Positions 14,919 to 40,347 of a stretch of DNA of 64,000 nucleotides are shown piece by piece (the stretch's first letter is position 1; each line of letters begins with the position of its first letter). Source of the DNA: Burkholderiaceae bacterium (GTDB taxonomy: Bacteria; Pseudomonadota; Gammaproteobacteria; Burkholderiales; Burkholderiaceae_A); NCBI GenBank assembly GCA_018402635.1, contig JAGYIP010000005.1, forward strand, positions 62,001-126,000, given 5' to 3'. A model generated the notes under the pieces. It saw only the letters and a program-made list of their open reading frames with translations, ran no database searches and was not told the DNA's origin. The translations under genes were made by a program, and so were the position numbers.

Positions 14919-15727
14919 ATGAACTTACCCTCGAGCACAACCCAGCTTGTACCGGAGGTGCATTCTTTTCCGCAGCATGTCGCCATTATTATGGATGGCA
15001 ACGGGCGTTGGGCCTCTGCTCGTCGGCTACCTCGGGTTGCAGGTCACGAGCGCGGACTTGCGGCGCTGCGCAAGACCGTCGAGGCCTCGGTTTCCATGGG
15101 CATAAAGGCGTTAACTGTTTTTGCATTTAGTTCTGAGAACTGGCGACGGCCTGAGGAAGAAGTAAGTTTTTTAATGACGCTGTTTTTACGTGCTCTGCGA
15201 CGCGAGGTAAAGGAACTTCATCGCAATGGCATTGAGTTGCGCATTATTGGGGATCTGGACGGTTTTTCTGAGCCCTTAAGAAAAGCCATTCATGACTCGG
15301 TTGAGAGAACACGCGGTAATAAGGCGATGGTGTTAACGGTTGCTGTGAATTATGGGGGGCGCTGGGATTTATTGAATGCCGTGAATAAGGCGCTTGAACA
15401 GGCCACATTTCAGCAGCAAGGGCCCTCAGGCTTACTGAGGATGCCATTCGCCCTTATCTCGCCCTGTCTGACCTTCCCGAGCCTGATCTTTTCATTCGAA
15501 CCGGGGGGGAGCAGCGCATAAGTAATTTCATGATCTGGCAGCTTGCCTACACGGAACTCTTCTTCACGAACGCTCATTGGCCTGATTTCGATGGGCAGGC
15601 TTTACGCCAGGCCATCGAGAGTTACCAGATGCGGGAAAGACGCTTTGGGCGTACTTCAGGCCAGTTGGCCTCTCAGGCTATGTCTGGTTCAACAGACAAG
15701 GCTTACAACACCCGCTTTGCCATCTAG
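14919..15727 (+). CDS. uppS: undecaprenyl diphosphate synthase UppS, -1 frameshift in the sequence
   Basis: UppS makes the C55 lipid carrier for peptidoglycan and O-antigen. The N-terminal frame has [11 protein letters not shown] with Asp26 and Asn28, [11 protein letters not shown] and the middle of the domain up to about 15430. The conserved C-terminus ([23 protein letters not shown]) continues in another frame to the stop at 15727. One missing base, most simply a G at 15429-15430, restores a normal protein of about 269 residues. The enzyme is normally essential, so a sequencing error is far more likely than a pseudogene. Confidence 0.9.
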
Positions 15728-16558: not shown

Positions 16559-17730
16559 CGGTGAAACGTATCTGCCTCTTAGGTGCGACAGGCTCAATTG
16601 GCAAGAGCACGCTCGACCTTATCGCCCAGCATCCTGATCAATTTGAGCTTTTTTCGGCAAGCGCCAATTCCGATGTGGAAGGCATGCTAAGGCTTGTCCA
16701 GGCCTTTAAGCCCACGCAGGTCTGCATGAGGGATGAAGCGGCTGGGCAGCGGCTCTCGAGCCAACTTAAGGCGCTTGGCCTTGCGAAGACCGAGCTTCTT
16801 ATTGGCGGGCAGGGGCTGAATAATCTTGCTGCCCACCCCTCGGTCGATACCGTGGTTGCTGGCATTGTGGGCATTGCAGGGCTTTTGCCGGTCTGGTCGG
16901 CCGTTAGCACGGGAAAGTCGGTGCTGCTTGCAAACAAAGAGGCTCTTGTCTGCGCCGGAGAGCTTTTTGTTCAGGCGGCTAAGCGCTCTGACGCGCGTAT
17001 TCTTCCCATCGACAGTGAGCACAATGCCATCTTCCAGTGCCTAGGGCCTGCCTACCGCTGTTTTACCCGACCGGCGTCGGTGCGTCGGCTCTTGCTAACC
17101 GCCTCTGGGGGCCCCTTTCGTCAATGGTCGCCTGAGGCTATTCGGTCTGCTACGCCCGAGCAGGCAGTTAAGCATCCCAACTGGGTGATGGGCCCGAAAA
17201 TTTCGGTGGACTCGGCAACCATGATGAACAAGGCGCTTGAACTCATTGAGGCACACTGGCTTTTTGCCATGCCTGCCGCAGAGATCGAGGTGGTTATTCA
17301 TCCTCAGAGCATTATTCATTCAATGGTTGAGTTTCAGGATGGATCAACCCTCGCCCAGCTTGGGGCGCCCGATATGCGCACGCCCATAGCCCATGCGATG
17401 GCCTGGCCCCATCGCATTCAGTCCTCGGTCGAGTCACTGAACTGGAGCCAACTGCGCGAACTGCAGTTCGAGGTTCCCGACAACAAGCGCTTTCCTTCCT
17501 TGGAGTTCGCTCGCCATGCCCTTGCCAGTGGACCTGTCGCAAGCATCTGCCTGAACGCCACAAATGAGGTCATGGTGGCCAGGTTTTTAAAGGGTGATTG
17601 TGCGTTTGGGGCTATATTCGATCAGGTTGAAGAGGGCCTTAGTCGTTTTGCAGGCCGGTTTCCCATTCCTACAGGCCTTGATGACGTGATGGCCATCGAT
17701 ACAGAGGTAAGGTCTTTCTATGCTCACTAG
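16555..17730 (+). CDS. dxr: 1-deoxy-D-xylulose 5-phosphate reductoisomerase
   Basis: Dxr converts DXP to MEP with NADPH, the committed step of the non-mevalonate isoprenoid pathway that feeds UppS. The protein (391 residues from ATG 16555) begins with the NADPH-binding GATGSIG at residues 10-16. It contains LLANKEALVCAGE, the metal/substrate motif PIDSEHNAIFQCL and the WVMGPKISVDSATMMNK loop. ATG 16555 overlaps the cdsA stop; ATG 16537 is also in frame but less likely. Its end overlaps rseP. Confidence 0.96.
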   Translation: MTVKRICLLGATGSIGKSTLDLIAQHPDQFELFSASANSDVEGMLRLVQAFKPTQVCMRDEAAGQRLSSQLKALGLAKTELLIGGQGLNNLAAHPSVDTVVAGIVGIAGLLPVWSAVSTGKSVLLANKEALVCAGELFVQAAKRSDARILPIDSEHNAIFQCLGPAYRCFTRPASVRRLLLTASGGPFRQWSPEAIRSATPEQAVKHPNWVMGPKISVDSATMMNKALELIEAHWLFAMPAAEIEVVIHPQSIIHSMVEFQDGSTLAQLGAPDMRTPIAHAMAWPHRIQSSVESLNWSQLRELQFEVPDNKRFPSLEFARHALASGPVASICLNATNEVMVARFLKGDCAFGAIFDQVEEGLSRFAGRFPIPTGLDDVMAIDTEVRSFYAH

Positions 17731-19047
17731 CGTATTTGCATTCCTTGTTGCAGTTGGTCTCTTGGTTTTTATTCACGAGCTTGGCCATTACCTGGCAGCC
17801 CGCTCGGTGGGTGTTCATGTGCAACGGTTTTCAATTGGTTTTGGCCGCCCTCTTATTACGCGACGTGACAAGAATGGCTGCGACTGGGTCATTGCACTGG
17901 TGCCCTTGGGCGGTTATGTGCAGATGACCGAGAACGAAGACTCGCCCAAAAGCTTCGATCGCAAGCCGCTCTGGGCGCGTGCCTGGGTTGTTGTCGCTGG
18001 CCCCTTGGCCAACTTCCTTTTGCGGTGGTTGCCTTTGCATGCCTGGCAATTATTGGACGCCCCGAACCCATCGCGGTGTTCGATCAGCCCCCAGCCCAGT
18101 CGCTTGCCGAGCGCCTTGGTCTGCAAAAAGGTGACCAGCTGACTCTGCTTAATGGTGAGCCGATACGGTCTTACTCCGACTTTCGCTGGAAGATGACCCA
18201 GGCCTATATTGGCGAAGGGCAGTCACGCTACGAGCTGGAGCTCTCAACCGTCAGTGGTACGCAGCGCACGATAACGCTAAGCTTTGCCGAGCTGCAGCCG
18301 CTTGCCCAGGATGCCTCCATTGATGACATTCTTTTGAAGGCAGGTATACGACCGAGGTCGAATGGGGTGGTGGTGACGTCGGTGCTGGCAGCCAGCCCGG
18401 CTGAGGCCGCGGGTCTGCGCCCCGGAGACGGCTTTATAGGCCTTCAGGGGCGCGCCATAACCGATCCAAAAGATCTTCAGCAGCTTGTAGCAGCTTCTCA
18501 GGGGCAGCCGCTTGAGCTCGTTATTCGTCGCGAGGGCAGCGGCCAGCAAGAGGCCCTTATTATTCGGCCTCAGCAGGCGCCTGACGGCACAAGCTACCGT
18601 TTGGGAGTTGGCATTGGCCCTAGTCTTGAGACGCAATGGATACAGTACGGTCCGCTTCAGGCCATTGAAAGGGGCGTGCAGCGTACAGCCGAGCTTTCTG
18701 TCTTGTCACTGCAGGCGCTTGGCCGGATGGTAACGGGCGATTTGTCGTGGCGTCAGATGAGTGGCCCGGTGGGTATTGCCGGTGCGGCAGGCCAGTCAGC
18801 CGAGCTTGGTCTTATTGCTTTTGTAAGTTTTTTAGCACTTATTAGCATAAGCATTGGGGTCTTGAACCTGCTTCCTATCCCAATGCTCGACGGTGGACAC
18901 CTCATGTATTATGCCTTTGAGTTTGTTCGTGGTCAGCCTCTCTCGGTGCAGGCCCAGCAGGCAGGCCAGCGGCTTGGCTTGGTCCTTATTGCCCTTCTTA
19001 CGAGCCTGGCGCTAGTAAATGACATGTCCCGATTGTTTGGGTTCTAA
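17720..19047 (+). CDS. rseP: RIP zinc metalloprotease RseP, -1 frameshift in the sequence
   Basis: RseP is the inner-membrane site-2 protease that cleaves anti-sigma factor RseA and activates the sigmaE envelope stress response. The first frame gives the zinc motif HELGH (His19, Glu20, His23) in the first membrane segment and runs to GPLANFLL. The second frame, from about 18022, continues FAVVAFACLAIIG, then PDZ domains and the C-terminal NLLPIPMLDGGH motif. One T missing from the TTTT at 18018-18021 explains the break. The corrected protein has about 442 residues, a normal length. The gene sits just before bamA, as usual. Confidence 0.92.
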
Positions 19048-21485: not shown

Positions 21486-22040
21486 GTGGTTATAAATACG
21501 CAATCAATGGTGAGTCGCAACAATTCATGGGCCCTGCGCGTGAGCCTTGTTGTTTTTCTTGGGGCATCGCTCTTGATCTCCTCAGCGGCCTGGGCACAGA
21601 CCAAGATTGGTTTTGTGCGCACCGAAAGAGTTCTAAAAGAGTCCACCCCTGCCCAGGCCGCCCAGAAGAAGCTTGAGGCCGAGTTTTCAAAGCGCGAGAA
21701 GGAGCTTCAAGATTTAGCCAGCCGTCTTCGTGGTCTATCAGAGAAGCTTGAGCGCGATCTGCCTGTTCTCGCTGAGAAAGACCGTGTTAATCAGCAGCGA
21801 GAAATTACCGACATGGAGCGCGACCTGCAACGCAGGCAGCGTGAGTTTCGTGAAGATTTGAACCAGCGTCGTAACGAGGAGTTAGCAGGGGTAGTGGAAC
21901 AGGCCAATCAGGCCATTCGCAAAATTGCTGAATCTGAGAAGTTCGATATTATTTTTCAAGAGGCGGTCTATGCATCGCCACGAATCGATATTACCGATAA
22001 GGTGCTGCGTGCCCTTGGAACCAAGGCAAGCGGAAAGTAA
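21486..22040 (+). CDS. skp: periplasmic chaperone Skp (OmpH family)
   Basis: Skp holds unfolded outer-membrane proteins in the periplasm on their way to BamA. A signal peptide ends at SSAAWA-Q; the mature part is a highly charged helical coiled-coil (residues about 50-150) as in the OmpH family, ending in a short domain with the IIFQEAVYASPRIDITDKVL pattern. GGAGG at 21475-21479 favours GTG 21486; TTG 21483 and ATG 21507 are other in-frame starts. Positioned between bamA and lpxD as in most proteobacteria. Confidence 0.9.
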   Translation: MVINTQSMVSRNNSWALRVSLVVFLGASLLISSAAWAQTKIGFVRTERVLKESTPAQAAQKKLEAEFSKREKELQDLASRLRGLSEKLERDLPVLAEKDRVNQQREITDMERDLQRRQREFREDLNQRRNEELAGVVEQANQAIRKIAESEKFDIIFQEAVYASPRIDITDKVLRALGTKASGK

Positions 22041-23058
22041 TACGCTGTCTGTTTCTGCTGCCGAGCTTTTCGAGCCGCTTGGCTTTCAGGTTCAAGGGGA
22101 TCAATCCCTTCAGTTAACGGGCTTTTCCAGCCTCGATCGGGCCACAGCAACCCAGTTCAGTTTCCTTGGGCATGCCCGGCACCGTGAAACCCTTGCTTCA
22201 ACCAAGGCAGGTCTGGTTATTCTTCCCTTAGATGCGCCTGCTGAGGATGGTGCATGGCAGGCATGGGTCACCGTTCACGATCCCTACCTGCTTTTCGCGA
22301 AGGCTGCGGGCCTCTTGGTTCAGCGAAGGCAGGCGAAAGCGCCACAACCCAGCCTTGTCCATCCCACTGCAGTGGTCTCGCCCGATGCGATACTCGCAAA
22401 CGGGTGCCAGGTTCATGCCCATGCCGTTATTGAGAGCGGTGCCGAGCTTGGCATGGGAACGGTTGTTGGGGCAGGCAGCTTTATTGGTGAAGGCGTTCGT
22501 ATTGGCGCTGGAAGCTGGCTGGCGCCCCGGGTTGTCATTCAGGCCTCTGCAACCCTGGGCGAGCGTTGCATCATTCATGCCGGAGCCGTCATTGGTGCCG
22601 ATGGCTTTGGCTTTGTTGCCGACCTAGATAAGTCTTGGGTGAAGATTCCTCAAACAGGTTCGGTGCAGCTTGGTGATGATGTTGAGGTCGGCGCTAATAC
22701 AACCATCGATCGCGGTACGTTTTCCAACACACGGCTTGGCAATGGCGTGAAGCTTGACAACCTCATTCAGGTGGCGCACAACGTCGAGATTGGTGATCAC
22801 ACGGCCATTGCCGCATGCGTGGGCATTGCGGGCAGCGCAAAAATTGGAAGGTTCTGTCAAATAGCAGGGGCTGCGGGCATTCTTGGGCATTTATCTATTG
22901 CTGATTTCACGGTGGTTGGGCCTATGACACTTATTCAGTCAAGCATTTCCAAGGCGGGCAGGTATGTGGGGGTCTTCCCCGCCATGGAGCACCGACGCTG
23001 GGCCAAGGCTGCGGCAAGCCTAAGGCGGGAGTTTCCGGCGGCTCAAGGCGATGCATAG
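22015..23058 (+). CDS. lpxD: UDP-3-O-acylglucosamine N-acyltransferase LpxD
   Basis: LpxD adds the N-linked hydroxyacyl chain at the third step of lipid A synthesis. An N-terminal uridine-binding domain is followed by left-handed beta-helix hexapeptide repeats (HAVIESGAELGMGTVVGAG and onwards) with the catalytic-His motif QVAHNVEIGDH. The start is uncertain. TTG 22015 gives about 347 residues and overlaps skp by 26 bases, GTG 22009 is also possible, and no ATG lies near the expected N-terminus. The gene ends inside a triplicated 9-mer. It is followed by fabZ but not by lpxA and lpxB, which lie near 36-38 kb. Confidence 0.92.
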   Translation: MEPRQAESNTLSVSAAELFEPLGFQVQGDQSLQLTGFSSLDRATATQFSFLGHARHRETLASTKAGLVILPLDAPAEDGAWQAWVTVHDPYLLFAKAAGLLVQRRQAKAPQPSLVHPTAVVSPDAILANGCQVHAHAVIESGAELGMGTVVGAGSFIGEGVRIGAGSWLAPRVVIQASATLGERCIIHAGAVIGADGFGFVADLDKSWVKIPQTGSVQLGDDVEVGANTTIDRGTFSNTRLGNGVKLDNLIQVAHNVEIGDHTAIAACVGIAGSAKIGRFCQIAGAAGILGHLSIADFTVVGPMTLIQSSISKAGRYVGVFPAMEHRRWAKAAASLRREFPAAQGDA

Positions 23059-23076: not shown

Positions 23077-23150
23077 GATAGGCTTAAGATCAATTAAAGT
23101 TGGGGTGGACGGTTGGTAGAAGGCGTTATTTTTTTGGGAGATTGGCACGC

Positions 23151-23609
23151 ATGACTTTATCTGTGCAGGACATTTTAAAAACCCTGCCCCATCGGTATCC
23201 GTTTCTACTTGTTGACCGTGTGGAAGAACTTATTCCCGGTGAGCGCATTCATGCTTATAAGAATGTCACCATCAACGAAGAGTTCTTTACCGGGCATTTT
23301 CCTCATTATCCCGTGATGCCGGGGGTTCTTATTATTGAGGCGCTTGCGCAGGCAGCAGGTGTGCTGTCGTTTAAGACCATGGAGCAGGCGCCTTCGGACG
23401 ACACCGTTATTTTTTTCGTGGGTATTGATGACGCCCGTTTTAAGCGGCCCGTTGTGCCGGGTGACAGGCTTGATCTTCATGTCACCATTGAACGCTGTGT
23501 GCGTGCTGTCTGGAAATACAAGGCAAGGGCCCTTGTTGGTGAGCAACTGGCCGCAGAGGCCACGTTAATGTGCGCCTTACGGGATGTTCGCCCCTCCGAA
23601 AGCGACTGA
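23151..23609 (+). CDS. fabZ: 3-hydroxyacyl-ACP dehydratase FabZ
   Basis: FabZ dehydrates 3-hydroxyacyl-ACP in fatty acid elongation and competes with LpxA and LpxD for the same hydroxyacyl-ACP. The 152-residue hot-dog protein has [13 protein letters not shown] at residues 12-24, the catalytic [13 protein letters not shown] with His49, and Glu63. ATG 23151 has GGGAG upstream; longer in-frame starts add an unconserved segment. The 92 bases after lpxD hold the rest of the 9-mer repeat and no gene. Confidence 0.97.
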
Positions 23610-23618
23610 CGTAAGGTT

Positions 23619-24302
23619 TTGACAGAATCCCTGGTTATTGGGGTTGATGAGGCGGGACGTGGCCCTTGGGCGGGTCCTGTTACCGCGGCCGCGGTTGTCA
23701 TTCGGGCCGTTGGCCTGTCAGGCCCTACTGGGGCAGGTGCGCGATTCCAAGGCCTTAACAGCAAAGCGGCGTGAAGCCCTGGTGCCTATTATTAAGGCGC
23801 AGGCCTTGGCCTGGGGGTAGGCTGGTCAGATGTTGATGAAATTGACGGGCTTGGCATTCTTAAGGCAACCTTCCTCGCCATGAAACGTGCGGTCCATGCG
23901 CTTTTCTCCAGCCTGCCCAGTGCTTCTTCTGAGGGTGCTCTGAATCAAGATTCAGCGGTGCCGATGTTGAACGGCCAGCAGGTTCGGCTCATTGTGGATG
24001 GCAGTCTTCACCCGGCGAGGTATCTTGGTGAGGATCAATGGCCTTGGCCCACCGAGACCATGGTGAAGGCCGATGCCCGTCAGATTGAGGTGGCGGCTGC
24101 CTCTGTTCTTGCAAAGACGGCCCGCGACGCCCACATGGTGGCGCTTGCGAAGACCTATCCCGGCTTTGGCTTTGAGCTTCATGCAGGCTACGGCACGAAA
24201 CAGCACCAGCAGGCTTTGCGGCGGCTTGGGCCTGTTGCCGTGCATCGCAAATCGTTTCGCCCCATACGCGAGCTTCTGTTAAGCAGCGAGCGCGCACCAT
24301 GA
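23619..24302 (+). CDS. rnhB: ribonuclease HII, two compensating indels in the sequence
   Basis: RNase HII removes ribonucleotides and RNA from DNA hybrids. Three frames are needed. [15 protein letters not shown] (catalytic Asp and Glu) is in the first, from TTG 23619. [20 protein letters not shown] is in the second, after an extra base in GGGG 23730-23733. [25 protein letters not shown] through the C-terminal KRSFRPI-like end is in the third, after a base missing from GGGGG 23813-23817. Correcting both gives one normal-length protein. The gene overlaps the next one by 4 bases. It usually follows lpxB; here it directly follows fabZ. Confidence 0.85.
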
Positions 24303-26091: not shown

Positions 26092-28559
26092 ATGTCAAAT
26101 CGTAATGAAGTTGCAGCAAACCGGCTTGGTGAGCGGCTGGTGGTTCCTTTCCAGGAACTGCGTATGCAGGACGTTGACTCGGTGGGGGGGAAGAACGCCT
26201 CGCTGGGCGAGATGATTAGCCAGCTCGCCAGCGCGGGGGTGCGTGTGCCGGGTGGTTTCGCCACCACGGCCCATGCCTTTCGTGTTTTTTTGCGTCATGC
26301 CGGCCTGGCCGAGCGCATTGCTAAGCGTCTTGAGGGGCTGAACACCGAGGATGTTCGCGCACTTGCAGACTGCGGTTGCGAGATTCGTCAATGGATTGTT
26401 GAGACACCACTGCCTGCCGAGCTTGAGGCCGAGATTCGACAACATTTCAATGGTCTGGTCGGTTCTGAAGGGCAGGGTGTGTCGCTTGCTGTGCGCTCTT
26501 CGGCCACAGCCGAAGACCTGCCCGATGCCTCGTTTGCAGGCCAGCAGGAGAGCTACCTGAATGTTGTGGGCATTGACGACGTACTTGAGAAAGTTCGGCA
26601 TGTCTTTGCCTCGCTCTACAACGACCGCGCCATAAGCTACCGGGTGCACAAGGGGTTCACCCATGTTGAGGTAGCGCTGTCGGCGGGCATCCAGCGCATG
26701 GTGCGGTCTGACACGGGTGCAGCAGGCGTTATGTTCACGCTCGACACCGAGTCGGGCTTTGATCAGGTTGTCTTCATCACCAGCTCTTATGGCCTTGGTG
26801 AGACGGTGGTGCAGGGCGCGGTGAATCCCGATGAGTTTTATGTGCACAAGCCCATGCTTGAGGCCGGTAAGTTTCCTGTCATTCGTCGTCAAATTGGAAG
26901 CAAGCTTATTAAGATGGTGTTTGCAACGCCAGAAGAACGACAGAAAACCAAAGAGGCCGTAGTCACGGTAGACGTCTCCACCGAGGCCCGCAATCGTTAC
27001 TCTTTAAGCAATGATCAGGTCATTGAGCTTGCCAAGTACGCCTGCATTATTGAGAAGCACTACGGCCGGCCTATGGACATTGAGTGGGGGCTTGATGGCC
27101 AGGATGGCAAACTCTTTATTCTTCAGGCCCGCCCAGAAACAGTGAAGTCGCAGCAGTCAAGTGCCGATGTGCAGCAGCGCTTTCGACTGAAAGGGCATGG
27201 CAATCTTCTGGCCTCAGGTCGCGCCATTGGGCAAAGAATTGGTGCAGGTCCTGTGCGGGTTGTCTCCGGACCCCACGAGATGGCGCGTGTTCAGCCTGGC
27301 GATGTCTTGGTAACCGACATGACAGACCCCAACTGGGAGCCTGTCATGAAGCGCGCCTCAGCCATCGTGACCAACCGTGGCGGGCGCACCTGCCATGCGG
27401 CCATTATTGCGCGCGAGCTTGGTATTCCTGCCGTTGTGGGCTGCGGGGATGCAACCGAGCGTATAGGCGATGGCACAACCGTAACGGTCTCATGCGCCGA
27501 GGGCGACACGGGCAATATCTATGAAGGCCTGCTTGAGACCGAGGTCAGCAATGTGGAGACCGGAGAGCTGCCCACCATTGCCGTGAAAATCATGATGAAT
27601 GTGGGCAACCCACAACTTGCCTTTGACTTCCAGTCCATTCCCAACGAGGGTGTCGGGCTGGCTCGGCTTGAATTCATTATTAATAACAACATTGGCGTGC
27701 ACCCCAAGGCCATTCTCGACTACCCCCAGGTGGATGCCGAGTTAAAAATGCAGTCGAGCGTATCGCCCGTGGCCATGCCTCGCCCCGCGATTTCTTCATC
27801 GACAAGCTTGCTGAGGGCGTGGCCACCATTGCAGCAGCCTTCTGGCCCAAGCCCGTGATTGTTCGCATGTCCGACTTTAAAAGCAACGAGTACCGCAAGC
27901 TAATTGGCGGCTCACGTTACGAGCCCGAGGAAGAAAACCCCATGCTTGGTTTTCGAGGTGCCTCACGCTACATTGCCAGCGCATTTCGCGACTGCTTTGA
28001 AATGGAGGTAGAGGCCTTAAAGCGTGTGCGCGAGCAGATGGGTCTTGTGAACGTTGAAATTATGGTGCCCTTTGTTCGCACGCTTAAAGAGGCCCGCCAG
28101 GTGAGCGAGCTTTTAGCCGCCCACGGTCTTTCTCGGGGAAGCGGTGCCGATGCCAAGGGCCAGGGTGGACTGCGTCTGATTATGATGTGCGAGCTCCCCT
28201 CGAACGCCATTCTTGCAGACGAGTTTCTGCAGTATTTCGATGGCTTTTCCATAGGCTCCAACGACCTCACCCAGCTTACGCTTGGTCTCGACCGCGATTC
28301 GGGTCTGGTGGCAGATGCCTTCGACGAGCGTGACCCCGCCGTGAAGGCCCTTTTAAAACTTGCTATTGAGGCCTGTAACAAGGCTGGTAAGTACGTGGGA
28401 ATATGTGGCCAGGGCCCATCGGACCATCCCGATTTTGCCGCCTGGCTTATGGACGAGGGTATACAGTCCATCTCGCTTAACCCCGACACCGTGGTTCAGA
28501 CATGGCAGGGCCTTGCAGCAATTAAGGGCCCCGGCAGCTCGTTTCAGCCTCCGAGCTAA
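26092..28559 (+). CDS. ppsA: phosphoenolpyruvate synthase PpsA, -1 frameshift in the sequence
   Basis: PpsA converts pyruvate and ATP to PEP for gluconeogenesis. The first frame has the N-terminal ATP-binding domain and the phosphohistidine domain with [15 protein letters not shown] (His435). The second frame carries the PEP/pyruvate-binding C-terminal domain ([16 protein letters not shown] and [15 protein letters not shown]). The break lies in AAAAA at 27744-27748; one extra A gives [20 protein letters not shown] and a full protein of about 822 residues. A sequencing error is likely. livH starts only 18 bases downstream. Confidence 0.92.
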
Positions 28560-33889: not shown

Positions 33890-34870
33890 ATGACTAAACC
33901 CCTACGTGCAGCGGTGGTCGGCGTGGGCTACCTTGGACGTTTTCATGCCCAAAAGTACGCCCAGCTTGCGGGCCTTAACCTTGTAGCGGTTGTGGATGCC
34001 GACATCGACCGGGCCCAGGCAGTGGCCAGTGAGTTTCAGGGATGCAAGCCGCTGACGCAACTGCACACCTTGTTTGAAGAGGTCGACCTGGTGAGTGTGG
34101 TGGTGCCCACTCAACTGCACTTTGAAACTACCAAGCCTTTTCTTGAGCGGGGCATTCATGTGCTCTTGGAAAAACCCATGACAGTAACCGTTGAAGAGGC
34201 CAAAGAACTGAATGCCATTGCGCAGAGAACCGGGGCTCTTCTTCAGATTGGGCATCTTGAGCGTTTTAACCCAGCGCTGATGGCTGTTACAGGGCAGTCC
34301 ATTGCCCCCTTGTTCATTGAATCGCATCGTCTTGCGCCCTACAAGCCTCGGGGCGCCGATGTCAACGTGGTGCTTGATTTAATGATTCACGATGTGGACA
34401 TTATTCTGAACATGGTGGGTTCTGATATTGCCCGTATTTCAGCAAGCGGTGCGAAGATTCTCTCGGAGACCATCGATATTGCAAATGCACGGCTTGAGTT
34501 TGCCAATGGCTGTGTGGCCAATGTCACCTCGAGCCGCGTTAGTCACAAGACCGAGCGCAAGATGCGAATTTTTGCCCATCAGTCTTACCTGACCATTGAC
34601 TTCCAAGAGCGTCGATTTGGCCTTCATCGTCGGGGAGAGCGTGAACTCTACCCAGGCATTCCAGAAATTGTGAGTGAAGAAACCTCGTTTGAGTCGGCCG
34701 ATGCCTTGCTGACAGAAATTCAGGCCTTCGTGGCAGCCGTACGAGGCGAGGGCCCGGTGATCGTCTCGGGCCTTGATGGTCAGCGAGCACTTGAAACTGC
34801 AATTCGTATCACCGAGCTGGTGCATGAGGGCCCCACCAGTCTCGACCAACCCCTTGGCCGTTCACTTTAA
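33890..34870 (+). CDS. gnnA: Gfo/Idh/MocA-family oxidoreductase, probable UDP-GlcNAc 3-dehydrogenase (GnnA-like)
   Basis: The 326-residue protein has an N-terminal Rossmann fold with GVGYLG at residues 11-16, the family motif LLEKPMTV with Glu94-Lys95-Pro96, GHLERFNPA at 121-129 and the DLMIHDVD active-site segment at 163-170. In Acidithiobacillus, GnnA oxidises the 3-OH of UDP-GlcNAc so that GnnB can aminate it, and its gene sits with lpxA and lpxB. Here it is followed 14 bases later by a DegT-type aminotransferase and then lpxB, the same combination. The main alternative is a WbpB/WlbA-type enzyme for an O-antigen sugar, but no matching acetyltransferase or epimerase is near. Family certain; substrate inferred from context. 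Confidence 0.75.
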   Translation: MTKPLRAAVVGVGYLGRFHAQKYAQLAGLNLVAVVDADIDRAQAVASEFQGCKPLTQLHTLFEEVDLVSVVVPTQLHFETTKPFLERGIHVLLEKPMTVTVEEAKELNAIAQRTGALLQIGHLERFNPALMAVTGQSIAPLFIESHRLAPYKPRGADVNVVLDLMIHDVDIILNMVGSDIARISASGAKILSETIDIANARLEFANGCVANVTSSRVSHKTERKMRIFAHQSYLTIDFQERRFGLHRRGERELYPGIPEIVSEETSFESADALLTEIQAFVAAVRGEGPVIVSGLDGQRALETAIRITELVHEGPTSLDQPLGRSL

Positions 34871-34884
34871 AAGGACTGTTTATC

Positions 34885-35982
34885 TTGATACCCATGGTTG
34901 ATCTGCGCACGCAGTACCACTCGCTAAAGGCCGATATTGATAAGGCGGTGCTTGATGCCCTTGATGCAACGCAGTTTATTCTTGGACCCAACGTTAAGCA
35001 GCTTGAAGAGGAGGTCAGCCAGAGTCTGGCAGTTCCCCATGTCATTAGCTGCGCCTCGGGGACCGATGCCCTGCACTTGGCCCTTGCTGCCCTGGGCATT
35101 GGGCCTGGCGACGAGGTGATCACCACGCCGTTCACCTTTATTGCAACCGCCGAGGCCATTGCCTATGTCGGTGCGACACCGGTCTTTGTCGATATTGACG
35201 CAAGGACCTTCAACCTTGACCTTGCCCAGGTGCGCAGCGCCATTACACCTAAAACGAAGGCTGTGATTGCAGTTCACCTATTTGGCCAGCCTGCCGATGT
35301 CCATGGGCTTATGGAAGCCTGTTGCAAGGACAACCTCTACCTAATTGAAGACTGCGCTCAGTCGTTTGGCGCAACGGTGGGTGGTAAGCCCACAGGTGGC
35401 TTTGGCGTCATGGGCTGCTTTAGTTTCTTTCCAAGTAAGAACCTCGGCGGCTATGGCGACGGGGGCGCTGTGACCACGCTTACTGAAGCTCATAAGCAAG
35501 AGCTACTTGCCCTGCGTAACCATGGCAGCCATGTGCGTTACTACCACGATGTCATTGGCTACAACAGCCGTCTTGATGAGCTGCAGGCCGCCATTCTTCG
35601 AGTCAAGCTTCAGCATATTGAACGCTTCAACACCGAGCGCCGACGTGTTGCCCACCGCTACAACGAGAAGCTTGCGGGTCTGCCTGTAACCACGCCCTTT
35701 GAAGATGGCCTTGGTCGGCATGTCTTCCACCAGTACACCATTCTTACCGATCATCGCGAGAAGATCTCGTCCTTTCTTGGCGAAAAGAAGATTGCCAGTG
35801 CGGTCTACTACCCGGTGCCTCTGCATCGACAAAAGGCCTTTGGTGATCGGTTTGCCGGCCTTAGCCTTCCAGTGGCCGAGTCGGTCAGCCAGCGATGCCT
35901 GTCTTTGCCGATCTACCCTGAGATGACAAACGATCAGGTTGACGAGGTGGCTGCAGCGGTTCGGGATGCACTCCGGTCGTAG
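34885..35982 (+). CDS. gnnB: DegT/DnrJ/EryC1-family aminotransferase, probable UDP-3-keto-GlcNAc transaminase (GnnB-like)
   Basis: This 365-residue PLP enzyme has SCASGTDALHLALAALGIGPGDEV, EDCAQSFGA and the PLP-lysine segment FFPSKNLGGYGDGG with Lys185. Such enzymes transaminate keto-sugar nucleotides. With the preceding oxidoreductase it would convert UDP-GlcNAc to UDP-GlcNAc3N, the substrate for amide-linked acylation by LpxA. TTG 34885 gives the family N-terminus MIPMVDLRTQY, with AAGGA at 34871-34875; ATG 34894 is the alternative. WbpE-type enzymes of O-antigen pathways look similar, so the role rests on the neighbours lpxB and lpxA. Confidence 0.75.
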   Translation: MIPMVDLRTQYHSLKADIDKAVLDALDATQFILGPNVKQLEEEVSQSLAVPHVISCASGTDALHLALAALGIGPGDEVITTPFTFIATAEAIAYVGATPVFVDIDARTFNLDLAQVRSAITPKTKAVIAVHLFGQPADVHGLMEACCKDNLYLIEDCAQSFGATVGGKPTGGFGVMGCFSFFPSKNLGGYGDGGAVTTLTEAHKQELLALRNHGSHVRYYHDVIGYNSRLDELQAAILRVKLQHIERFNTERRRVAHRYNEKLAGLPVTTPFEDGLGRHVFHQYTILTDHREKISSFLGEKKIASAVYYPVPLHRQKAFGDRFAGLSLPVAESVSQRCLSLPIYPEMTNDQVDEVAAAVRDALRS

Positions 35983-36030: not shown

Positions 36031-37239
36031 ATGAGCCTCAGCCTCGGCCCTAACCCCAGCCTCAGTCCCAACCCCACCAATACCAGGTCTATCCGAATAG
36101 CCCTTATTGCCGGAGAGGCCTCCGGTGACCGGCTGGCAGCCGACCTGGTGCGGTCGATTCAGAAGAAGACCGCTGGCCTTTCTTTTTTTGGAATGGGCGG
36201 CGCATCCATGCGGGCCGCTGGTGTGCGTATTGAACAAGATTTTGCTGGGCTTTCCGTAGTGGGTATCTTGGAGGCGCTCTGGCACTACCGTAGGCTTCGG
36301 GCGGTGCTTGAGCGTATGAAGCGCATGCTTGCCGACGAGCGGCCCGACCTTCTTATTCTTGTTGACTACGCCGAGTTTAATTTGCGGCTGGCCGACTATG
36401 CCAAGTCGATTGGCTTGAAGGTCTTGTTCTATGTAAGCCCGCAGCTCTGGGCCTGGCGGCCAAGTCGCATTCACCGAATGGTGGGGCGCATTGATGGCAT
36501 GGCTGTTTTGTTTCCCTTCGAGGTGCCTTATTACCAGGCGGCTGGCATACCGGTGCGCTTTATTGGCAACCCCTTGGTGGATGATGTCAGGCCATCAGGC
36601 ACCGTAGAGCAGCTTCGGCAGTCCTTTGGTCTGGGTCTGGCTAAAGACAAGCCCATCCTTGGCCTCTTTCCTGGTTCCAGAGAGTCGGAATGGCGCCGGC
36701 ACATGCCAACGCTGGTGCAGCTGGCCGAGCAAATGCTGGCCAAGGGCGTTCAGCCTGTGGTTTCGATTGCCTCCGGACTCGATATTGATGAGAAAGAGCA
36801 GGCCCGCCGACATCCTGGTATTCGTTGGGTGAAGGGCCGCTCGGTGGATTTAATGGCAAGCTGCGACGCGCTTGTTGTGGCATCTGGAACGGCAACCCTT
36901 GAGGCAGGGCTGCTAAAAATTCCTATGGTGGTTATCTACAGGCTTAGCTGGCTTAGCTATGAGCTTCTTCGATTGTTTGTGCACGTGAAAGACATTGCAC
37001 TGGTGAATATTGTTGCAGGCCGACGCATTGTTCAGGAGCTTATTCAGTCCTTGTTCACGCTGCAAAACCTTAGTGAAGAAACACAACGGCTTTTGTTTGA
37101 TGAGGCCTATCGACGGACCATGGTCGAGGCTCTTGGGGATGTCAAAGAGAGTCTGGGGGAGGGCGGTGCGTCGGACCGGCTTGCAGACTGGGTGCTTGAG
37201 CTTGTGCTTATTGCGCCGCCGCGCGGCCCGTCCGAATAA
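36031..37239 (+). CDS. lpxB: lipid-A-disaccharide synthase LpxB
   Basis: LpxB joins UDP-diacylglucosamine and lipid X to form the lipid A disaccharide. The 402-residue GT-B protein has IRIALIAGEASGDRLAADL at residues 21-39, FYVSPQLWAWRPSRI, FIGNPLVDD and the nucleotide-binding LFPGSRESEWRRH, all typical. About 19 residues before the conserved start form a Pro/Asn/Ser-rich repeat (SLGPNPSLSPNP), but no other start codon is available. Its end overlaps lpxA, on the opposite strand, by 32 bases. Normally lpxB follows lpxA on the same strand. Confidence 0.95.
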   Translation: MSLSLGPNPSLSPNPTNTRSIRIALIAGEASGDRLAADLVRSIQKKTAGLSFFGMGGASMRAAGVRIEQDFAGLSVVGILEALWHYRRLRAVLERMKRMLADERPDLLILVDYAEFNLRLADYAKSIGLKVLFYVSPQLWAWRPSRIHRMVGRIDGMAVLFPFEVPYYQAAGIPVRFIGNPLVDDVRPSGTVEQLRQSFGLGLAKDKPILGLFPGSRESEWRRHMPTLVQLAEQMLAKGVQPVVSIASGLDIDEKEQARRHPGIRWVKGRSVDLMASCDALVVASGTATLEAGLLKIPMVVIYRLSWLSYELLRLFVHVKDIALVNIVAGRRIVQELIQSLFTLQNLSEETQRLLFDEAYRRTMVEALGDVKESLGEGGASDRLADWVLELVLIAPPRGPSE

Positions 37240-37996
37240 TGCCGCGCTTGCTTTCTTCAATGAACCTCACGAAGCGATCAACCTCTGCATAACAGTCTCG
37301 AAGCGCAACGATCTCGGGCTCATCAGGGCGATGACCCCGGCGATGCACAAGAAGACGGAAGACCCGCTCGAGCCCCTGAATAACCTCGCTCTCGATTCCC
37401 CTGCGCTGCAGGCCAACCTTGTTAATGCCGATGGCCCGTGCGTAGTTGCCCGTGGCAAGCGTGAAGGGGGAAAGGTCGCGGTTAAGGGCTGCGCCCATAC
37501 TTGTGTAAGCATGGGCTCCCACCCGGCAGAACTGATGCACCAGGGTGAAGCCACCCAGGGTGACACCATCTTCAATGTGAACATGGCCTGCAAGCGAGGC
37601 GTTGTTTGCAAAAATAACGTTGCTGCCGATTTTGCAGTCATGGGCAATGTGGCAATACGCCATAATCAGGTTATGGTCACCGACACGCGTTACACCGCCA
37701 CCCCGCACGGTTCCACGGTGAAGGGTGGCCGATTCTCGAATGATGTTGTGATCGCCAATAACAAGCTCAGTGGGTTCGTCTTTGTAGCTCAGGTCTTGGG
37801 GAGGCTGGCCAAGACTTACAAAAGGGTAGATCTGACAGTGTTCGCCGATGGTGCAGGGCCCCGAAATAACCGCATGCGAGGCAACCCAGCTGCCCTTGCT
37901 AATTTTTACGTTGGGACCAATGACGGCAAAGGCGTCAACCCTGACGTCATCGGCCAATGAGGCCTGGTCGGAAACTTGGGCAAGAGGGTGAATCAT
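37208..37996 (-). CDS. lpxA: UDP-N-acetylglucosamine O-acyltransferase LpxA (or 3-amino-sugar N-acyltransferase)
   Basis: LpxA transfers a 3-hydroxyacyl chain to the 3-position of UDP-GlcNAc, the first step of lipid A synthesis. The 262-residue left-handed beta-helix protein aligns without gaps to E. coli LpxA through the active site: His116 and His119 (E. coli 122 and 125), His138 and His154 (144 and 160). The acyl-length ruler position (E. coli Gly173) is Met167, as in C10-specific Pseudomonas LpxA. It is convergent with lpxB and lies next to gnnA/gnnB-like genes, so its natural acceptor may be the 3-amino sugar with an amide product. Confidence 0.95.
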   Translation of the reverse strand: MIHPLAQVSDQASLADDVRVDAFAVIGPNVKISKGSWVASHAVISGPCTIGEHCQIYPFVSLGQPPQDLSYKDEPTELVIGDHNIIRESATLHRGTVRGGGVTRVGDHNLIMAYCHIAHDCKIGSNVIFANNASLAGHVHIEDGVTLGGFTLVHQFCRVGAHAYTSMGAALNRDLSPFTLATGNYARAIGINKVGLQRRGIESEVIQGLERVFRLLVHRRGHRPDEPEIVALRDCYAEVDRFVRFIEESKRGIIRTGRAAAQ

Positions 37997-38055: not shown

Positions 38056-38982
38056 ATGGCGCGCGAGGTTCTTAATTCGGTGGTGAAGGGCTCCTTGTGG
38101 CTTGGCGGCATCTATTCCTATCTGCCTCGGAGAATTCAGCAGGTGCTGTCGGTTCCCCTGGGTGCCTTGCTTTACTGGCTCGCCTCACCCCGACGCCTAG
38201 TGGTTGCGCGTAATCTTTCGCTTTGCTTTCCATCGCTTTCCGAGGCCCAGCGCTTGACCATCTCGCGTCAGTTCTTTCGAAACGTTGCCCGCGCCTTTCT
38301 CGATTTATTTCAGCTTTGGCGAATCAGAGAAAATGATCTAAAACAATTGGTTAAATTAGAAAATCTCGAACTGTTCGAGGTAGCAAAGCGGGGCTTTATT
38401 GAGCAGGGGCGGCCGGTCATTGTCTTTGCACCTCATTTTGTTGGGCTTGATGCGGGCGGCGCCCGGCTGCAGCTTGAAGACCAGCTCGTTTGCATGTATT
38501 CCAATCAGGCACTGCCTGCCATCGATGCCTGGATTTATAAGGGCCGTAGCCGTTTTAACCAGCCCCTGCTGATTTCGCGGCGTGATGGCATCGGGCAGCT
38601 GGTGAGAGCTTTGAAGAAGGGCGTCACCGCCCATTTTTCGCCCGACATGGACCTTGGTCGACGAGGGGCAGAGTTTGTGCCTTTTCTCGGCGTGCCTGCT
38701 GCCACCCAGCCAAGCATCATTCGGCTCGCCCATCTTACCAACGCAACAGTCCTTCCCATGGTGACGTTCTTAACCCCACAGGGCTACCGTGCCAAGTTCT
38801 ACGAGCCTTTATCGTTTCCGAAAGAGGAAAGCCTTGCGCAGGGCCTTGCTCGTATTCACGCCTTTATTGAGGCGCGTATTGCAGAGGCACCCGATCAATA
38901 CCTCTGGGCCCATCGTCGTTTCAAAACACGACCTGAAGGCCTTGAGCCTGTTTATCCGCCTAAACGAGCCAAGATAGGTTAA
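38056..38982 (+). CDS. lpxL: LpxL/HtrB-type lipid A late acyltransferase
   Basis: This family adds secondary acyl chains to Kdo2-lipid IVA at the inner membrane. The 308-residue protein has an N-terminal hydrophobic segment, the HX4D active site in APHFVGLDAGG, the SRRDGIGQLVRALKKG block and the C-terminal WAHRRFKTRPEG motif. It probably belongs to the second lipid A locus with lpxB and lpxA. Which acyl position and chain length it uses is not visible. A short AT-rich patch sits at about 38330-38370. The stop is only 6 bases from the convergent hipA stop. Confidence 0.9.
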   Translation: MAREVLNSVVKGSLWLGGIYSYLPRRIQQVLSVPLGALLYWLASPRRLVVARNLSLCFPSLSEAQRLTISRQFFRNVARAFLDLFQLWRIRENDLKQLVKLENLELFEVAKRGFIEQGRPVIVFAPHFVGLDAGGARLQLEDQLVCMYSNQALPAIDAWIYKGRSRFNQPLLISRRDGIGQLVRALKKGVTAHFSPDMDLGRRGAEFVPFLGVPAATQPSIIRLAHLTNATVLPMVTFLTPQGYRAKFYEPLSFPKEESLAQGLARIHAFIEARIAEAPDQYLWAHRRFKTRPEGLEPVYPPKRAKIG

Positions 38983-38988
38983 CTCACA

Positions 38989-40347
38989 TTAGGAAAGCTT
39001 GGCCAGACGTTCCGCTACGGATGGATCGAATTTCTTCTGGGTCAGCAGATCTCCAATCGTCGATTGTCGGGACTTGATTGCTTCGGCGACTAACCCTCGT
39101 CGCTCTTCAATGACGGGCAGCACTTTCTCTCTTAGAAAGTCTTGCTCGACCGGCAACAGCCGTTCGTCTGCGATGATTCTGGAGATGGCCTGCGGCAAGT
39201 CCGCACTCATCCGCGACAAGATGCCACGGACCAGCCTTGGCGCCACGCCAGCCTCATAGGCCATCGCATCCCAGTGCGGCCCCTCCACCCAGCCGGGCTT
39301 GTTCTCACCAGCAATGGCCATGGACATGGTCTGCCTTGGCAGGTAGGCCTCCACGCAGAGCATGTCGTAAAACGGGGCCACTGCAGCTTTCTGTCCCCGC
39401 ATCAGGAAAGCAATGTTCTTGGCGTGCGCGTCCAGGTTGCCGACTAGGTAGTTAAAGGCGATCCACTGAACAACTGCATTGGTAGCCACGATTGGACGAT
39501 CGATGAACCTTCCTTGGAGAACCCCAAACAAGTGATGCAACCCCAGTCCACCCTCGCTCTCGTATTTCTTTGAAGGCGCCACGCCAAGAGCCTGGCACAG
39601 ATCGATCTGATGAACGCGCCCGAACGTCATCCCAGCAGCCTTCTCTGGCCTCTTTTCCAATGGCACCCGATCAAATCGTTCGATGACATAGAGTGGCTCA
39701 GGGAGATGCAGCAAACCAACCGCAGGCACCGGAACCTTTAGCGCATGGGCCAGGCGCATGCAGAAAAATTCGTTGGCCGGGCAGTGAGGGAAGTCCGCGC
39801 TGGCATTCTCTGGTTTAACGATATGGGTCGATGGCGCCGAACCCTCGGGCAGAAACATCGCACCATAGACGTCGATACGCAGCCCCAGTTTTTCCTGGGC
39901 ACCCGCCAGAGACATGCGGATTTCTTGCCATGACGCCATCAGAGGGAGATTGCGCGCTCTGGACGCCTGAATCTTTTCCTGTAGTGCTGCGCTTGAGAGT
40001 GGGACCAAAACCTCCTCGGTTGTCAGATCAAAGCCCTCTGGAATCAGCGAAAGAGCCCCTGCGGTGTCCTGTCCGTGCCGACTCAGAAGCGCCCAGGTGT
40101 CTCGGGGATCGACTCTGTCCCGTAAGGCGATCAAATCTCGCAGTCGGCCTTCGGGCAATAGGTTTTCGAAAAACCATTCAACCGGCTTTGCGTCCGTAGT
40201 GTCTTGAAATTCTCCAGTGGCAATTGGAAAATTGGGCGATAACGCATAGCCCTTCCACTCGGCCGTGTAGCTGAACTTCCAAAGCCCATTTTCGATTTCA
40301 ATAGTTCCGACCAGAATACCGTCGGCCGAGACGATCAACCTGTTCAT
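38989..40347 (-). CDS. hipA: HipA-type serine/threonine kinase toxin
   Basis: HipA toxins phosphorylate a tRNA synthetase and cause growth arrest. The 452-residue protein has the kinase features of E. coli HipA: SLAGAQEK at residues 146-153 (autophosphorylated Ser equivalent 146), STHIVKP with Lys178, the catalytic GNLDAHAKN with Asp306 and Asn311, and FYDML with Asp328. Length and motifs are complete, so it looks active. It overlaps hipB by 4 bases. It sits in a small patch between two conserved housekeeping genes and is probably acquired. Confidence 0.93.
   Translation of the reverse strand: MNRLIVSADGILVGTIEIENGLWKFSYTAEWKGYALSPNFPIATGEFQDTTDAKPVEWFFENLLPEGRLRDLIALRDRVDPRDTWALLSRHGQDTAGALSLIPEGFDLTTEEVLVPLSSAALQEKIQASRARNLPLMASWQEIRMSLAGAQEKLGLRIDVYGAMFLPEGSAPSTHIVKPENASADFPHCPANEFFCMRLAHALKVPVPAVGLLHLPEPLYVIERFDRVPLEKRPEKAAGMTFGRVHQIDLCQALGVAPSKKYESEGGLGLHHLFGVLQGRFIDRPIVATNAVVQWIAFNYLVGNLDAHAKNIAFLMRGQKAAVAPFYDMLCVEAYLPRQTMSMAIAGENKPGWVEGPHWDAMAYEAGVAPRLVRGILSRMSADLPQAISRIIADERLLPVEQDFLREKVLPVIEERRGLVAEAIKSRQSTIGDLLTQKKFDPSVAERLAKLS

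Follow-up and report, generated by a model that had tools for sequence, protein, structure and literature searches.

In Acidithiobacillus ferrooxidans and Leptospira interrogans, a pathway made up of GnnA, GnnB and LpxA proceeds through UDP-GlcNAc3N and gives lipid A an amide-linked 3-acyl chain. Passages of two reports state that GnnA and GnnB together make this sugar nucleotide (PMC5644692, PMC8036547). The locus described here resembles that pathway in having gnnA and gnnB together with lpxA and lpxB; it differs in its convergent lpxB/lpxA layout, in its position at a new site and in belonging to a Burkholderiales-type draft genome. Its LpxA shares with the L. interrogans enzyme, a characterised GlcNAc3N user, a non-lysine residue at the position of Escherichia coli Lys76 (Gly71 there, Ser70 here). 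However, it carries a methionine at the hydrocarbon-ruler position, where L. interrogans LpxA, which takes C12, has Lys171 (sections of PMC7072397). The Met ruler is instead that of the C10-specific LpxA of Pseudomonas aeruginosa (Met169 there, Met167 here, in an ungapped alignment), which, unlike the LpxA under study, keeps a lysine (Lys72) and is assigned UDP-GlcNAc as acceptor in a structure-based description within the same sections of PMC7072397. We suggest that the LpxA of this locus is part of an imported GlcN3N-lipid-A module that combines an acceptor switch with a short chain, an explanation toward which, taken in full, we lean with modest confidence.

The locus lies in a 64,000-nucleotide stretch of a Burkholderiaceae genome, hereafter the window. 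The first-pass annotation had placed lpxA at 37208-37996 without naming a strand; we find a complete and intact open reading frame there on the minus strand, with an ATG start and a 262-aa product. This protein exceeds both NCBIfam LpxA cut-offs (333.7 vs 226 bits; 310.1 vs 231) and retains the His/Asp dyad H119/D120 (E. coli H125 and D126), the pocket histidines H116, H138 and H154 (H122, H144 and H160), and R198 (R204). No other LpxA was identified in the 1.96-Mb assembly, an 83%-complete draft from which a second LpxA could be missing; three other matches are weak (E 2.6e-9 to 0.3), and the strongest of them falls inside lpxD. LpxC and LpxK matches are also present from the lipid A pathway.

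Convergent with lpxA is a set of three genes on the plus strand. The first (33890..34870) encodes a GnnA-like Gfo/Idh/MocA dehydrogenase (UDP-GlcNAc 3-dehydrogenase) whose best NCBIfam score is 185 bits, below the cut-off of 450, and whose best PDB chain is 7bvj (229 bits), which we take to be A. ferrooxidans GnnA. The second (34885..35982) encodes a GnnB-like DegT/DnrJ sugar aminotransferase that passes no NCBIfam cut-off; its best PDB match is 7b0d, with WbpE chains close behind, and it is 58-67% identical to the products of gnnB genes adjoining gammaproteobacterial lpxA. The third is lpxB (36031..37239; 243 bits, cut-off 190), whose 3' end overlaps that of lpxA by 32 nt. On the other side, divergent from lpxA, stands a gene for an LpxL/HtrB-type late acyltransferase (38056..38982, plus strand; 208 bits, below cut-offs). 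A HipA-type protein is encoded between lpxL and guaA (38989-40347, minus strand); in a relative, G010, the gap from lpxL to guaA is ~16 nt, showing that this gene is not common to all close relatives.

The presence of gnnA and gnnB homologues beside lpxB and lpxA, recognised by homology with no curated cut-off passed, bears on the acyl linkage. The first-pass annotation had spoken of a "3-linked" chain without its acceptor context; because of these neighbours, an amide on GlcN3N is likelier than an ester on GlcN. Judged from sequence, UDP-GlcNAc3N is quite probably the acceptor of this LpxA. Enzymes of the GnnA/GnnB type can serve other sugars, in keeping with the WbpE chains among the PDB neighbours of GnnB, and four order-level relatives with GnnA (G083, G063, G041 and G088) keep Lys76 and show no gnn gene on the fetched lpxA stretch. 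These observations would fit a conventional O-acylating LpxA, with UDP-GlcNAc as acceptor and C10 as chain, and gnnA and gnnB serving another glycan. We regard that arrangement as unlikely, given that gnnA-gnnB adjoin lpxB/lpxA in all members of the window's type as well as in gammaproteobacterial relatives, and that the pocket lysine is replaced by serine.

The canonical gene order in the family, as seen in close congeners without gnnAB, is bamA-ompH-lpxD-fabZ-lpxA-lpxB-rnhB. The segment lpxD-fabZ-lpxA-lpxB was present in 14/14 canonical LpxA loci fetched (seven from g1 and seven from g2, including one of the two loci of G017), where g1 to g3 are our codes for genera or groups of the same family as the window genome; close named records are Burkholderiales/Betaproteobacteria MAGs, for example SFB_34D_100_33, RJ.6 and WB4_1_1048. 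In the window, the native cluster contains lpxD (21925..23058, start approximate, plus strand; 47-54% identity to the family) and fabZ (23100..23609, start approximate, plus strand; 60-76%), and the native lpxA-lpxB pair is absent from this assembly. The fabZ stop codon (23607-23609) and the rnhB start (TTG, 23619) form a direct junction (23607..23621, plus strand), and no lpxA-lpxB remnant was found in the 9-nt gap between them. The imported set sits ~10 kb away. Its arrangement, with tadA followed by gnnA-gnnB-lpxB facing lpxA and then by lpxL, recurs in three g1 relatives; gnnA-gnnB-lpxB is thus convergent with lpxA in 4/4 g1 members of the window's type (G000, G005, G006 and G010, window included), the G006 contig stopping within lpxA. 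GnnA was not found at E<=1e-30 in the seven other g1 genomes, each of which has only a canonical LpxA (~45%). No LpxA match was found in the g3 genomes G014, G016 and G022, which we do not read as loss of lipid A, since all of them are incomplete and G014 has LpxC. Several well-known genes with intact neighbours are split between frames in the window (rnhB, 23619-24302; uppS, 14919-15521; rseP, 17720-19047; ppsA, 26092-28559), as is lpxC on contig C6. These are probably assembly indels and possibly real frameshifts.

Phylogenetic analysis, performed after dropping eight named loci that duplicated survey genomes and rows under 200 aa (also dropped from the 2x2 counts below), shows that the two LpxA types have separate ancestry: a single clade for canonical and cassette LpxA was rejected by the AU test (p 0.0054, lnL difference 63). 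The window LpxA groups first with g3 LpxAs (SH-aLRT 85); gammaproteobacterial gnn-linked LpxAs join next, at modest support (84, 67). In the surrounding clade (SH-aLRT 92), Met occupies the ruler in 16/16 sequences and Lys76 is found in 4/16. Its nearest relatives beyond the family are gammaproteobacterial and have the same convergent layout and the Met. Comparison with two of these, Thioalkalivibrio sulfidiphilus and Ectothiorhodospira lacustris, gives identities of 56-57% for LpxA, 47% for LpxB, 61-65% for GnnA and 66-67% for GnnB, versus 40-49% (LpxA) and 30-34% (LpxB) to the family's own canonical proteins. Both species share with the window the convergent order, lpxA facing lpxB, gnnB and gnnA, together with the Met ruler and a non-lysine residue at position 76 (Gly there). 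In these species, however, the set still lies inside the bamA-ompH-lpxD-fabZ cluster, whereas the window set is displaced and the native slot is empty. The AU test, the convergent layout with Met in gammaproteobacterial relatives and the absence of the native pair together argue that the ruler Met arrived with the imported GlcN3N-lipid-A module. We infer that the module arrived first and that the native lpxA-lpxB pair was lost afterwards.

The ruler residue itself, Met167 (codon 37496..37498, minus strand), had been equated in the first-pass annotation with E. coli Gly173 by way of His154 and E. coli His160. This holds in phmmer alignments to the PDB chains of the E. coli (1lxa) and P. aeruginosa (5dem) enzymes, which are ungapped in this region, and column mapping likewise equates Met167 with P. 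aeruginosa Met169, the residue of a C10-selective LpxA. Met167 is invariant in 9/9 gnn-type LpxA sequences of the family and is therefore not a chance misread; the canonical LpxAs of the family have Ala at the ruler, or Gly in one genome (G007). The annotation's further claim, that E. coli G173M and the Pseudomonas Met give C10 enzymes, agrees with published statements (passages of PMC6408518 and PMC6820557). According to the first of these, G173M turns the C14 enzyme of E. coli into a C10 enzyme, and M169G has the opposite effect in P. aeruginosa (PMC6408518); the second describes Met169 as the ruler in the P. aeruginosa structure, touching ligands in the acyl groove (PMC6820557). The same residue equivalence would also suit O-acylation of UDP-GlcNAc with C10. 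For the family Ectothiorhodospiraceae, part of PMC5923411 reports lipid A of Spiribacter salinus with ester-linked 10:0(3-OH) at 3 and 3' on glucosamine, a comparison that concerns lipid A chemistry and not the LpxA sequence.

Met at the ruler column is neither rare nor telling by itself. It occurs in 71/265 aligned LpxAs, a set biased by enrichment for relatives, and among 121 LpxAs from GnnA-negative genomes the residue is G in 43, M in 26, A in 18, V in 12, F in 10, I in 7, L in 3, and S and T in one each. Since ruler Met is seen in GnnA-negative genomes too, it is uninformative on the acceptor.

The first-pass prediction of 3-hydroxydecanoyl as the donor chain is partly upheld, through the residue equivalence and the published swaps; we consider C10 a plausible best guess from sequence, and UDP-GlcNAc3N and C10 together to be about evenly balanced against the rest. 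Because the C10 prediction has a one-residue basis and the cap residue differs, C12 is also possible. The acyl channel of E. coli LpxA is capped by H191, according to passages of a review (PMC6286764); this position is Y185 here and P187 in P. aeruginosa, and two groove residues, A130 and S134, differ from P. aeruginosa V132 and A136. An N-acylating LpxA in which such residues outweigh Met167, so that the chain is C12 or longer, would have a precedent in the C12-taking GlcNAc3N-LpxA of L. interrogans (part of PMC7072397). We judge this somewhat unlikely in view of the single-residue swaps at the ruler that changed C14 to C10 and back (portions of PMC6408518).

A second substitution, Ser70 (codon 37787..37789, minus strand), falls by column mapping at E. 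coli Lys76 and P. aeruginosa Lys72. The chain in PDB 3r0s, presumably C. jejuni LpxA, also has Ser at this position. In E. coli, Lys76 contacts the glucosamine ring O at 3.0 A (section of PMC6286764), and its P. aeruginosa equivalent contacts the sugar 6-OH, as stated in part of PMC7072397, which also lists the Gly71 of L. interrogans at this site. We scored both residue and GnnA in 234/255 rows; no GnnA score was given to the canonical copies of six genomes with two LpxAs, or to named loci that had neither gnnA on the stretch nor a genome-wide search. With Lys and non-Lys as rows and GnnA absent and present as columns, and with counts uncorrected for kinship, the order set gave [[75,5],[2,8]] (p 7e-7; GnnA in 8/10 non-Lys and 5/80 Lys rows) and the phylum set [[41,8],[3,33]] (p 1e-12; GnnA in 33/36 and 8/49). 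The named loci, from a survey of 80, gave [[4,30],[2,21]], with no association (p = 1), and a test on phylogenetically independent pairs was not significant, with four supported pairs being too few.

Where gnnA or gnnB stands beside lpxA, 29 of the 31 readable rows are non-Lys (32 rows in all, one truncated; the exceptions are G072cas and G305), stretches of 1.2-1.4 kb being too short to show such adjacency. Genomes with two LpxAs mostly follow suit, with the cassette copy non-Lys in 5/6 and the canonical copy Lys in 5/6 (G072cas is Lys; G140can is Ser). For named loci without adjacent gnn genes, the same search, covering 28 genomes in all, found GnnA elsewhere in the genome for 13/15 non-Lys and 5/9 Lys loci. 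Seven non-Lys rows had no GnnA found (G018, G025, G117, G141, G118, L294 and L311): in G018 and G025, lpxB begins ~12 nt into the contig, so that a contig end lies where gnnAB would be, and G117, G118 and G141 carry GnnB-like matches. Lys is kept in 25 named loci, mostly deltaproteobacterial, whose lpxA stretch also holds gnnA or gnnB. These loci, the p of 1 among named loci and the independent-pairs result do not sustain Lys76 loss as a proven marker of GnnAB-linked LpxA. Loss of this residue is a possible adaptation to a 3-amine acceptor, not a required one, and we offer it as a lead only. A literature search, weak on this point as most subscription papers lay outside it, found no report of a Lys76 association or of gnnA in Betaproteobacteria. 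In L173 (G305) and L207 (G452), an LpxA near a gnnA-like gene keeps Lys76, with Arg in place of E. coli His160. LpxAs of the Acidiferrobacterales/Muproteobacteria type (L267-L271, L295 and L310) have His-x-Gly for E. coli Asp74-Leu-Lys76, and their genomes encode GnnA at another site.

In the imported-module explanation that we prefer, GnnA would oxidise UDP-GlcNAc at C3, and GnnB would then transaminate the oxidised sugar to UDP-GlcNAc3N. LpxA, with Ser70 in place of Lys76, would move a 3-hydroxyacyl chain onto the 3-amine to form an amide at C3, while Met167 would close off the acyl groove, which lies between subunits, at its distal end and select a short chain, most likely 3-hydroxydecanoyl. 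The predicted product is a lipid A whose 3 and 3' positions bear short chains in amide linkage. We infer the GnnA and GnnB activities, the acceptor choice and the chain length from residue identities and gene context. The known GnnA/GnnB-LpxA pathway would thereby gain this LpxA as a member; what is more likely to be new is a joint change of acceptor and ruler via an imported module.

A relaxed LpxA that accepts both UDP-GlcNAc and UDP-GlcNAc3N would instead yield a hybrid backbone. GlcN3N-GlcN lipid A accompanies gnnAB and two lpxA genes in Capnocytophaga canimorsus (passages of PMC3342949), hybrid lipid A is described for Granulibacter in part of PMC8036547, and both LpxA types occur in G017, of a second genus in the family. 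This genome has the canonical lpxA-lpxB and, in addition, a gnnA-gnnB / lpxA / lpxL set without lpxB (loci L047 and L048), and in this respect it resembles C. canimorsus. That species belongs to another phylum and has two lpxA genes, whereas the window genome has one LpxA. With the gnn-type enzyme as sole LpxA, we find a hybrid backbone here distinctly unlikely. The two-LpxA state of G017, a bin with ~3% estimated contamination, looks like an intermediate; if it is not contamination, G017 is predicted to make hybrid lipid A. More generally, and tentatively, the sugar-acyl linkage may behave as an exchangeable gene module, gnnA-gnnB-lpxA(-lpxB) with its own ruler, that enters a genome, coexists as in G017 and displaces the native LpxA, with Lys76 loss as the acceptor switch.

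If the imported-module explanation holds, bacteria of a single genus diverge in the outer membrane's most conserved portion, with ester versus amide at 3/3' and a longer versus a short chain, and one module accounts for both changes. The chain probably goes onto an amine in place of a hydroxyl, which would alter the chemistry of the outer-membrane anchor. Under this explanation, one genus would offer two natural LpxAs for probing acceptor and chain-length determinants, with Lys76 as a candidate single residue for acceptor choice. Two order-level relatives also carry a second LpxA beside gnnA/gnnB and lpxL (L121, 8329-9084, in G072; L117, 1809-2558, in G054). The G072 cassette copy keeps Lys76, with Phe in place of E. 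coli His144.
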